This document shows, one piece after another, positions 34,610 to 39,759 of a stretch of 64,000 nt of DNA (position 1 is its first letter; each line of letters starts with the position of its first letter). The DNA is from Hyphomicrobium sp. (GTDB lineage Bacteria > Pseudomonadota > Alphaproteobacteria > Rhizobiales > Hyphomicrobiaceae): positions 1 through 64,000 of the forward strand of contig PERL01000005.1 in the NCBI GenBank assembly GCA_002928735.1. Reading direction: 5' to 3'. The translations under genes and the position numbers were made by a program. The notes under the pieces are model-generated. The model was not told where the DNA came from. It made no database searches and worked only from the letters and a program-made list of their open reading frames with translations.

Positions 34610-34972
34610 ATGACCAGCGCACCTGTGACACGCCTCTTGCCGACCGGTGGCGGGGCTGATCCGATTACCGAGGATTTGGACGGCTGGACGGTGGTTGGCG
34701 GCCAGCCCACCATGAAAACCTATGTGCAGCACACGTCGGCTGACGGTTCGATGGTCTCGGGCTACTGGGAGGCGACGCCGGGCACTTACCGGGCGGTTTA
34801 TACCGGTTTTGAGTTCGTCCACCTATTGAAGGGCCGTGTCGTCATTACGCCGGATGGAGGCGACGCGGTGGAGATGACGGCGGGATGCGCGTTCGTCGTG
34901 GAGCCGGGCTTTACCGGCACATGGGAGATTAAAGAACCCGTGGCGAAGCACTTCACCGCGCAGAACACTTAG
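34610..34972 (+). CDS. cupin domain protein (DUF861-like)
   Basis: A 120-residue single-domain cupin: MVSGYWEATPGTYRAVY is the first motif and EFVHLLKGRVVITPDGGDAVEMTAGCAFVVEPGFTGTWEI the second. It has no bound-metal histidine set that can be defined with confidence. The ATG at 34610 is preceded by GGAGGGAC. It is convergent with, and overlaps by 4 bases, the YggS-type gene. Function unknown; DUF861 cupins are related to EutQ. Confidence 0.8.
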   Translation: MTSAPVTRLLPTGGGADPITEDLDGWTVVGGQPTMKTYVQHTSADGSMVSGYWEATPGTYRAVYTGFEFVHLLKGRVVITPDGGDAVEMTAGCAFVVEPGFTGTWEIKEPVAKHFTAQNT

Positions 34973-35637
34973 CCGCTGCGCGCACCGAAAATGGCGCTGC
35001 CGACGCGGATGTGGGTGGCGCCAAGCGCGATGGCCGTTTCGAAGTCGTCGCTCATACCCATGCTGAGGCCGGTGAGGCCGTTTTCGGCTGCGAGTTTGGC
35101 GAGCAGGCCGAAGTGCAGGGCAGCCTCCTCGTCGACGGGGGGGATGCACATGAGGCCGGTGATCGGGAGTTCCAGCTTGTTGCGGCATATGTTGACGAAG
35201 GCCGTTGTCATCTGCGGCGGGATGCCGGCCTTTTGCGGTTCCTCGCCGGTGTTGACCTGAACGAAGAGCTCGGGGCTGCGGCCCTGCTTCTTGATTTCTA
35301 CGGCGATGGCTTCGGCGATTTTTGGGCGATCGACGGTGTGGATGGCGTCGAAGAGTTCGACGGCGTCTTTCACCTTGTTCGATTGCAGCGGGCCGATGAG
35401 GTGGAGTTTCAGACCGCGGACGCGCTCCATGATCGGCGGCCATTTGGTTTTGGCTTCCTGGACGCGGTTTTCGCCAAAAATGCGCTGGCCGCACTCGATG
35501 ACGGGCAAGATCAGCTCTTCGCCGTAGGTTTTGGAGACGGCGACGAGCGTGATGGAGGCCGGATCGCGATTTGCCGCCTTGGCTGCAATTTCGATGCGGC
35601 TGTGGATCTCGCGGAGGGCTGCGACGGGATCGGTCAT
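34969..35637 (-). CDS. YggS family PLP-binding homeostasis protein
   Basis: A 222-residue TIM-barrel PLP protein (PROSC/YggS type), with PLP lysine in ITLVAVSKTYGEE (Lys36), the QIFGENRVQEA loop, LHLIGPLQSNKV and HIRVGSAIFGAR at the C-terminus. It balances vitamin B6 vitamers and affects amino-acid metabolism. Its ATG overlaps the TGA of fic by 4 bases (ATGA-type), so it is translationally coupled to fic, an unusual pairing. Confidence 0.93.
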   Translation of the reverse strand: MTDPVAALREIHSRIEIAAKAANRDPASITLVAVSKTYGEELILPVIECGQRIFGENRVQEAKTKWPPIMERVRGLKLHLIGPLQSNKVKDAVELFDAIHTVDRPKIAEAIAVEIKKQGRSPELFVQVNTGEEPQKAGIPPQMTTAFVNICRNKLELPITGLMCIPPVDEEAALHFGLLAKLAAENGLTGLSMGMSDDFETAIALGATHIRVGSAIFGARSG

Positions 35638-36782: not shown

Positions 36783-36793
36783 GTGCGGACCTT

Positions 36794-37013
36794 ATATGGA
36801 ACCATATTTCATTTTTGGTTCCATATTGGGCAGGATATGGTGTTGGGGACGCCGTGTCCAGGGGATATGGCACCATTTCTTTGATTCGGCGACATATGGG
36901 CGTGGATAGGGCATCTGGGATGCCATAACCGCCTTTTATGGAACTCAAACTGGATTTTTGTTCCATATCGTAGAGGATATGGCGACGGCGGCGACATATC
37001 GGGGAGGATATGG
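36794..37013. repeat. duplicated inverted-repeat module upstream of fic
   Basis: ATGGAAC-N15-GTTCCAT (36796-36824) followed after 7 bases by AGGATATGG (36832-36840) is repeated as ATGGAAC-N15-GTTCCAT (36938-36966) with AGGATATGG (36974-36982), the same spacing 142 bases downstream. Two more GGATATGG elements lie at 36863-36870 and 37006-37013. GCGACATAT also occurs twice. The block lies in the 367-bp gap between fic (-) and leuS (+), and looks like a multi-site operator. Confidence 0.7.
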
Positions 37014-37149
37014 CGACGAAATGCCGAAACATCGACATGTCGATCGGGAGGCCCCATGCGTCGGCGTCGCCTTGACCCCCTACAGGCTTTCGGGCTCTGT
37101 ACGGCCGACTTCCGTTCACCATCTCTCTCCATCAAATTCGACAGGCCCA

Positions 37150-39759
37150 ATGGCAACCGAACGCTACAACGCTCCCGACCGCGAACACCACTGGCAGGCG
37201 GCCTGGGATGAGGCCCAGATTTTCGTGGCCGGCGCCGATCAATCGAAGCCCAAATGCTACGTGCTGGAGATGTTCCCGTATCCGTCCGGGCGGATCCACA
37301 TGGGGCATGTGCGCAACTACGCGATGGGCGACGTGTTCGCGCGCTACAAGCGGGCGAAGGGGTTCAACGTTCTGCATCCGATGGGGTGGGACGCATTCGG
37401 CATGCCGGCGGAAAACGCGGCGCTGGAGCGCAAGACGCATCCGGCTGCGTGGACCTACGCCAACATCGACGCGATGAAGGCGCAGCTCAAATCGATGGGT
37501 CTGTCGCTCGACTGGTCGCGCGAGATCGCGACGTGCAACGTTGCCTATTACAAGCACCAGCAGGCGATCTTCCTGAAGCTCCTGGAAAAGGGGCTCGCGT
37601 ATCGCGGTCCCGGCAAGGTGAACTGGGATCCGGTCGACCAGACGGTGCTGGCGAACGAGCAGGTGATCGACGGGCGGGGGTGGCGTTCGGGCGCGCTCGT
37701 CGAGCAGCGCCAGATGCAAGTCTGGTATTTCAAGATTTCGGAATTCGCGGACGATCTTTTGAAGGCGCTCGGCACGCTCGATAAGTGGCCGGAGAAAGTG
37801 CGCCTGATGCAGGCAAACTGGATTGGCCGGTCGGAGGGGATGTCGGTTCGCTGGGCGCTCGATGCGACGGGCGCGCCAGAGGGCGAGACAGAGATCGAAG
37901 TCTTCACGACGCGTCCAGATACGTTGTTCGGCGCGTCGTTCGTGGCGATTGCGGCCGATCATCCGCTGGCGCGGAAGATGGCGGAGAGCAACCCAGCTCT
38001 CAAAGAGTTCGCGGACGAATGCCGCCGGCGCGGAACGTCGGTGATCGAGATCGAAAAGGGCGAGAAGCTCGGGTTCGATACGGGGCTCAAGGTGCGCCAT
38101 CCGCTCGATCCGGACTGGTTGGTGCCCGTGTGGGTGGCGAATTTCGTGCTGATGGATTACGGCACCGGCGCCATTTTCGGCTGTCCGGCGGGGGATCAGC
38201 GCGACCTCGATTTTGCCCGAAAATACGGGCTTCCTGTGATCCCGGTGGTGTTGCCGGCGGGCGCGGATGCGGCGGCATTCAGGATTGAAAATCAGGCCGT
38301 CGATGGCGACGGCACGATGATCAATTCGCGCTTTCTCGATGGGCTTTCGACGGCGGATGCGTTCCAGAAGGTCGCCGACAGACTCGAAGCGGAAACGCTC
38401 GACGGCCGGCCGGTGGGCAAGCGCCAGGTGCGGTTCCGGCTGAAGGATTGGGGCGTTTCGCGGCAGCGCTATTGGGGTTGCCCGATCCCGGTCATTCATT
38501 GCGAAACGTGCGGCGTGGTGCCGGTGCCGGCAAAGGATCTGCCGGTGGAGTTGCCAGAGGATGCGACGTTCGACAAGCCGGGTAATCCGCTGGAGCGGCA
38601 CCCGACGTGGAAAAATTGCGCGTGTCCGCAGTGCGGGAAGCCGGCGCGGCGCGAGACGGACACGATGGATACGTTCGTCGACAGCTCCTGGTACTACGGC
38701 CGCTTTACCGCGCCCGGCAGCGACACGGCGATCGACGCAAGAGCTGCGAATTACTGGCTGCCGGTCGATCAATACATCGGCGGCATCGAGCACGCGATTT
38801 TGCATCTGCTGTACTCGCGCTTTTTCTGGCGGGCGATGGGTGCGGCGGGGGCTGCTCCGGCGAGCGTGACGGAGCCGTTCGCGGCGTTGTTTACGCAGGG
38901 TATGGTCACGCACGAGACGTACAAATCGGAGTCTGGCTCCTGGCTGTTGCCGACGGACGTGACGATCGAAGGCGAGGGCGAGGGCCGGCGCGCGACAGAA
39001 ATCGCGACCGGCAAGCCGGCCAGCATCGGCTCGATCGAGAAGATGTCGAAGTCGAAGAAGAACCTCGTCGACCCTGACGACATCATCCAGCATTGGGGTG
39101 CCGACTGCGCGCGCTGGTTTATGCTTTCCGACAGCCCTCCGGAGCGCGACGTGATCTGGACGGAGGCAGGCGTGCAGGGGGCTGGGCGGTTCATCCAGCG
39201 GATCTGGCGGCTGGTGAACGACATCGCGGATCGTCAGGCGGGCAAAGCATCAGCCGCGCCGTCCGAGGATGCGATGGAGGTGCGGCGGGCAGCGCATAAG
39301 GCGCTGGACGCGGTCGGCCGCAACATCGAGGCGCTGCGGTTCAATGTGGCCGTGGCCCAGATTTATGAGTTGACCAACGCCATCTCGTCGGCTTTGGGCA
39401 AGACGGGCGAAGATCTCGACGCGGCGCTGCACGAGTCGGCCGTAATGCTCGTGAAGATGATCGCCCCGATGATGCCGCATCTGGCCGAGGAATGCTGGGC
39501 GCGGCTCGGATACAACACTCTGCTCGCCAAAGAACCCTGGCCGGAGGCCGATCCGGCGTTGCTCGTTGACGATCGCGTAACCCTTGCCGTACAGGTCAAT
39601 GGTAAGCGGCGGGGGGAGATAACCCTCGCGCGAGCCGCCACAAATGCCGAGGCTGAGGCCGCGGCGCTGGCACTCGAGCCCGTCGTGAAAGCCCTTGAGG
39701 GGCGGCCGGCCAAAAAGGTCATCGTCGTGCCTCAGAGGATCGTGAATATCGTTGCCTGA
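37150..39759 (+). CDS. leuS: leucyl-tRNA synthetase
   Basis: An 869-residue class I synthetase. It has the HIGH-type motif [15 protein letters not shown], the connective-peptide editing segment ([15 protein letters not shown]), and KMSKS ([10 protein letters not shown]). The ATG at 37150 opens the expected [16 protein letters not shown]; the frame continues upstream through the repeat region. It begins the conserved leuS-lptE-holA series. Confidence 0.97.

Follow-up and report, generated by a model that had tools for sequence, protein, structure and literature searches.

The intergenic region between a Fic-domain gene (fic) and leuS in Hyphomicrobium sp. holds a block of inverted repeats, and it raises the question of what the block does and which protein reads it. 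A preliminary description of the 64,000-nucleotide stretch of DNA analysed here (the window) had reported a duplicated module in front of fic and suggested that the Fic protein may bind it and control its own gene. Both copies of the module, ATGGAAC-N15-GTTCCAT, are present exactly as described, at 36796-36824 and 36938-36966, offset by 142 bp (chance expectation in 64 kb, 0.00) and each followed by N7 and AGGATATGG. The further repeats reported for the block also lie there, including all four copies of GGATATGG and both copies of GCGACATAT in the window, and a whole-genome search (3.3 Mb) found the exact ATGGAAC/GTTCCAT pair only in the fic-leuS block.

The duplication is real, but as a description it underestimates the block and misses its regularity. 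The two modules are two of seven inverted pairs in one continuous lattice of 14 half-sites (36796-37038; Table 1), which alternate in strand with successive steps of 28, 13, 18, 12, 28, 13, 18, 12, 28, 13, 18, 13, and 28. An ATG occurs on the expected strand at 12 of the 14 positions, with one mismatch at each of the other two, compared to a mean of 4.1 (sd 0.74; maximum, 8) in 2000 dinucleotide shuffles and to 6 for the next-best lattice anywhere else in the window; scored with a lattice model, the array reaches 112.4 (shuffle maximum, 50.3). A repeat search of the window returned family spacings of 71, 71, and 31 bp, a result of ATG half-sites lying on alternating strands at fixed steps, while Tandem Repeats Finder called no array at the block because the half-sites are conserved and the spacers are not. 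The half-site consensus in the window is ATGGMRYC. Half-site centres are spaced 21, 19-20, 11, and 19-20 bp apart. These distances are close to one or two turns of the helix, which would place the sites on roughly the same face of the DNA.

Table 1. Genes, predicted promoter, and lattice half-sites in the window.
Feature	Position	Strand	Basis or remark
yggS, PLP-binding	34969..35637	-	TIGR00044
fic, SoFic-type protein adenylyltransferase, 382 aa	35634..36782	-	Pfam, NCBIfam, PADLOC, PDB matches, AlphaFold2
Putative operator lattice, 14 half-sites	36783..37045		steps 28/13/18/12-13, about 3.5 repeats at a period of about 71 bp
Half-site 1, ATGGAACC	36796..36803	+	ATG lattice scan
Half-site 2, ATGGAACC; with half-site 1, module 1 (N15)	36817..36824	-	ATG lattice scan
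Predicted fic promoter TGGACA-17-TATCCT, within lattice	36832..36860	-	consensus scan only
Half-site 3, ATGGTGTT	36837..36844	+	ATG lattice scan
Half-site 4, ACGGCGTC, degenerate	36848..36855	-	ATG lattice scan
Half-site 5, ATGGCACC	36867..36874	+	ATG lattice scan
Half-site 6, ATGTCGCC; first GCGACATAT	36888..36895	-	ATG lattice scan
Half-site 7, AGGGCATC, degenerate	36908..36915	+	ATG lattice scan
Half-site 8, ATGGCATC	36919..36926	-	ATG lattice scan
Half-site 9, ATGGAACT	36938..36945	+	ATG lattice scan
Half-site 10, ATGGAACA; with half-site 9, module 2 (N15)	36959..36966	-	ATG lattice scan
Half-site 11, ATGGCGAC	36979..36986	+	ATG lattice scan
Half-site 12, ATGTCGCC; second GCGACATAT	36990..36997	-	ATG lattice scan
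Half-site 13, ATGGCGAC	37010..37017	+	ATG lattice scan
Half-site 14, ATGTCGAT (family consensus), within palindrome ATCGACATGTCGAT	37031..37038	-	ATG lattice scan
leuS	37150..39759	+	Pfam

Based on its matches to the NCBIfam equivalog NF046030 (576.6 bits; curated cut-off, 550) and to SoFic PDB entries (1e-140), the Fic protein is assigned to the SoFic-type AMPylases and, by the PADLOC SoFic model PDLC03963 (E 1.7e-116), to the Sofic anti-phage defence family. The translation contains the Fic motif HPFIDGNGRTGR (HPFIDGNGR), which fits HxFx(D/E)GNGR, and an inhibitory-helix motif at residues 65-70 (SSEIEN) that fits the class II pattern (S/T)xxxE(G/N); the columns of both motifs are mostly invariant in a protein alignment. 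The winged-helix-like segment noticed earlier at the C-terminus corresponds to a Pfam match (PF21248, residues 278-353) and, in an AlphaFold2 model (pLDDT 84.8), to a predicted winged helix at 296-358 with a recognition helix at 321-333 and a wing at 338-349. The end of fic overlaps yggS by 4 bp (35634-35637), and the two genes therefore likely share a transcript. Of 98 lattice loci, 17 have yggS next to fic, including many from Hyphomicrobiaceae, hinting at a conserved fic-yggS transcript in that family. No antitoxin gene was seen beside fic. Elsewhere in the same genome there is only a weak Fic-domain match (L002, G000:C1:375457-375702), and a sister genome (G001) carries a second, distant SoFic-like gene (L102, G001:C21:23969-25018).

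The preliminary description had proposed a search for the module upstream of fic orthologues, and among relatives drawn from reference genomes and plasmids, the lattice was found upstream of 108 of 120 SoFic genes (about 90%). The absence from orthologous loci that the description had named as counting against its reading was not seen. Each locus was scored with the lattice model against ten shuffles, and as this threshold is lenient, the 5% background seen with arbitrary unrelated phage segments (7 of 140 pass) counts as part of that result. In nine loci for which the side was read, the lattice was on the upstream side of the gene in all nine and on the opposite side in none of eight. Over the lattice loci, the median distance from the end of the array to the start of the gene match is 22 bp. 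Across about 99 relatives, exact ATGTCGA occurs 204 times upstream compared to 11 times in an equal amount of coding DNA, and upstream half-sites recur as same-strand pairs 30, 40, and 70 bp apart and as N5, N11, and N15 inverted pairs; the 30, 40, and 70 bp spacings also emerge from a motif-blind count. The lattice period is 70-72 bp, and arrays range from about five or six half-sites in the smallest clear cases (28, 12, 18, 12, 28) to about 15-17 in the longest (L037, L041, L075, and L128). The hosts include Pseudomonadota, and individual loci carry the titles Planctomycetota, Verrucomicrobiota, Acidobacteriota, and Bdellovibrionota. The neighbouring upstream genes vary among loci while the lattice is constant, and the letters of the half-site vary by species while its geometry is kept; most loci have ATGTCGAT, Psychrobacter, Hydrogenovibrio, and Pantoea have ATGTTTAT, and others have ATGTTCA, ATGCACTA, ATGGCGC, or further variants. 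The test failed in 12 of the 120 loci, including all four from Xanthomonas (L054, L057, L064, and L079), where the absence of a lattice occurs together with an altered helix (TRQTAARHL) and self-regulation has perhaps been lost.

Variation in the half-site letters made it possible to ask which residues of SoFic change with them. A covariation scan covered 1428 residue-base pairs in 82 non-redundant loci, and the top rank went to residue 322 against half-site base 4 (z 15.2, a scale on which all values are inflated because the loci share ancestry). Residue 322 also ranked high against bases 5, 6, 7, and 8; high values were likewise obtained for residues 320, 323, and 326. Glutamine at 322 occurs with T4 in 59 of 59 resolved loci, histidine with G4 in five of five, and asparagine with C4 in two of two, while valine or alanine mostly accompanies TTC. 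On a tree built from residues 1-290, which leaves out the winged helix, H322 and G4 changed jointly three times, too few events for a sign test or independent pairs to reach p 0.05. Residues 60, 97, and 117, outside the helix, are also associated with half-site bases, as expected from shared ancestry; a pairing of R326 with base 8 failed when examined on the tree and was dropped. Residue 322 is the N-terminal start of the predicted recognition helix, where a direct contact would be expected to place the strongest pair, and this is the main reason for considering SoFic the binder. Together with the lattice at SoFic loci and its overlap with the predicted fic promoter, the covariation, which is indirect evidence, lends strong support, at the level of sequence, to the earlier suggestion that SoFic itself binds the lattice and autoregulates.

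The lattice core also occurs in phage DNA. At least 102 stretches of viral contigs match RTGTCGA-N15-TCGACAY-N11-RTGTCGA and at least 62 match the N5 version, while spacer-shifted control patterns returned 0 and 0 matches in two scans of viral contigs. SoFic was absent from the surrounding DNA examined at 147 of 150 of these viral loci (one of the three nearby matches, L249, is only a 31% match), from 48 of 50 whole viral contigs, in a search that recovered both true SoFic contigs, and from seven further viral contigs. Contigs bearing the module (L142-L148 and L161-L303) fall into 63 unrelated groups. The copies are intergenic in 68 of 132 cases compared to 23% of random positions, and their neighbours represent 90 PHROG families over 72 proteins, each with at most two members; with no common neighbour family, the copies are not the operator of one operon. 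They form four-site units (-> N15 <- N11 -> N5 <-) in which about one copy in three has a fourth half-site matching 6 or 7 of 7 letters at the predicted place; the lattice positions beyond the unit are empty. The N15 spacer, which was unselected in the scan, has two A/T-rich shoulders and a G/C-tolerant centre. The phage copies (46 groups) and the SoFic arrays (82 loci) share this profile, with r 0.86 and permutation p 5e-5. The sole exact N15 core among 398 bacterial genomes sits upstream of a SoFic gene, and a module with variant letters (ATGTTTA) gave one viral match compared to none in the control, numbers too small to weigh. When single modules from the phage contigs, or the DNA around them, were compared with annotated phages by BLAST, no named phage with the module was returned. 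The simplest reading is that the units may be decoys directed at host SoFic, and we tentatively suggest a role in counter-defence, in which phage DNA could capture SoFic and keep it DNA-bound and inactive or exploit it as a repressor, though the copies may instead serve another phage or host protein of the same specificity.

A Fic protein acting on its own promoter has a precedent in CccR of Yersinia pseudotuberculosis, a dimeric Fic toxin and footprinted autorepressor (PMC9755527). CccR is likewise a Fic AMPylase with a C-terminal HTH and inverted repeats with inner ends ATG/CAT in its own promoter (PMC9755527), and the window protein shares the CccR-type traits of a predicted C-terminal DNA-binding fold and inverted repeats in its own predicted promoter. 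The operator of CccR, however, is one inverted repeat (AGATAATCAT-N26-ATGATAATCT; PMC9755527), whereas the lattice in the window is periodic, its spacers being N5, N11, and N15; the CAT-N26-ATG geometry does not occur in the window lattice, where CAT-to-ATG steps are 12-13 and none is 27. The inhibitory motifs also differ (SARIEG in CccR and SSEIEN in the window), suggesting that the two proteins belong to different Fic subfamilies. SoFic SO_4266 and EcSofic (PDB 3EQX and 3ZCN; PMC12249575) are class II Fic proteins of the same equivalog family as the window protein, with a C-terminal domain, and a Shewanella relative (L061) has the lattice. Their regulation has been ascribed to autoinhibition, dimerisation, and the E. 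coli antitoxin AS1, and the papers found describe no operator; according to a 2023 paper, SoFic had not been shown to bind DNA (PMC10628234). The winged-helix Fic protein CbFic2 of Coxiella burnetii binds DNA, which alters its enzyme activity, but random DNA was used, no specific sites are known, and its N-terminus is a DUF4172 domain (PMC10628234). The open-access journal literature searched contained nothing on SoFic operators or phage copies. Autorepression at one inverted repeat is known from CccR; new here are the periodicity of the lattice and the code by which it is recognised. Toxin-antitoxin operons are autorepressed at multiple, repeated operators by their own product; here the DNA-binding domain is on the enzyme itself.

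The block is very probably a multi-site operator of the adjacent SoFic AMPylase, cooperatively bound and autorepressing, a reading for which CccR is the footprinted winged-helix precedent. SoFic dimers would dock through their C-terminal winged helices on the 14 half-sites and coat the fic promoter cooperatively, and with the predicted promoter inside the lattice blocked, the toxic enzyme would repress its own transcription. That another regulator occupies the lattice, with SoFic merely the regulated gene, is improbable. SoFic binding is read from sequence, which leaves room for such a protein, but the half-site letters track the SoFic recognition helix, with the strongest pair at the predicted DNA-contact position, and the lattice stays constant while the upstream neighbours differ. 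An element regulating chiefly leuS, or a part of its leader, is slightly less probable still. The block does fill the space between leuS and fic, which are neighbours in Hyphomicrobiaceae, but leuS is adjacent at just 18 of 98 lattice loci, and the array thus travels with fic; further, the array ends 13 bp from the fic ATG and about 105 bp from that of leuS. The effect on leuS also raised in the preliminary description gains no support. An Rfam search of the block gave no match, and an RNA element was dropped as a candidate. The two degenerate half-sites are what functionless chance repeats or decaying repeat DNA might leave, but the likelihood of this is negligible, as shuffles never exceeded 8 positions against the 12 of 14 observed, and an origin of this kind is refuted by the comparative data, in which geometry is kept while letters change in 108 loci.

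A role beyond repression for the same contacts is possible, though clearly less likely than autorepression, namely that the array is a DNA scaffold holding SoFic ordered and inactive (or deAMPylating), such that loss or titration of the DNA, for example during phage infection, would free the toxin. The longest arrays, with about 17 half-sites, far exceed what repression would need, orphan modules occur in phages, and how phage activates Sofic is stated to be unknown (PMC12249575). Further, CbFic2 is switched by DNA from AMPylation to deAMPylation via dimerisation (PMC10628234), a link between DNA binding and catalysis that would also have to operate in SoFic. Against a scaffold, the regulatory and toxic activities of CccR are reported to be independent (PMC9755527).

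The anti-phage toxin SoFic is widespread, and the literature describes its control as unknown; the conserved lattice, with autorepression as the preferred reading, makes this regulation testable in any species. Together with the residue-to-base code, the lattice offers natural data of a rare kind on how winged helices achieve specificity and assemble cooperatively. Were the decoy reading of the phage units true, SoFic arrays would act as DNA 'antitoxins' and mimicry of DNA sites would be a new route of counter-defence.

Beyond the SoFic family proper, 9 of 23 genes from a second Fic group (41-47% identity) pass the lattice test, with half-sites such as GTGTTAAA or ATGTATAG and a period of about 41 bp (upstream of L096, L097, L100, L101, L105, L106, L112, L114, and L118). 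The Ilyobacter polytropus plasmid pILYOP02 (Fusobacteria, L155) has two adjoining Fic family genes, and the one tested has a weak and aberrant lattice. SoFic genes on rhizobial plasmids lie near repABC, often with an integrase or recombinase adjacent (L149, L150, L151, L153, and L158), and a recombinase or integrase is beside fic in L157 and L159 as well.
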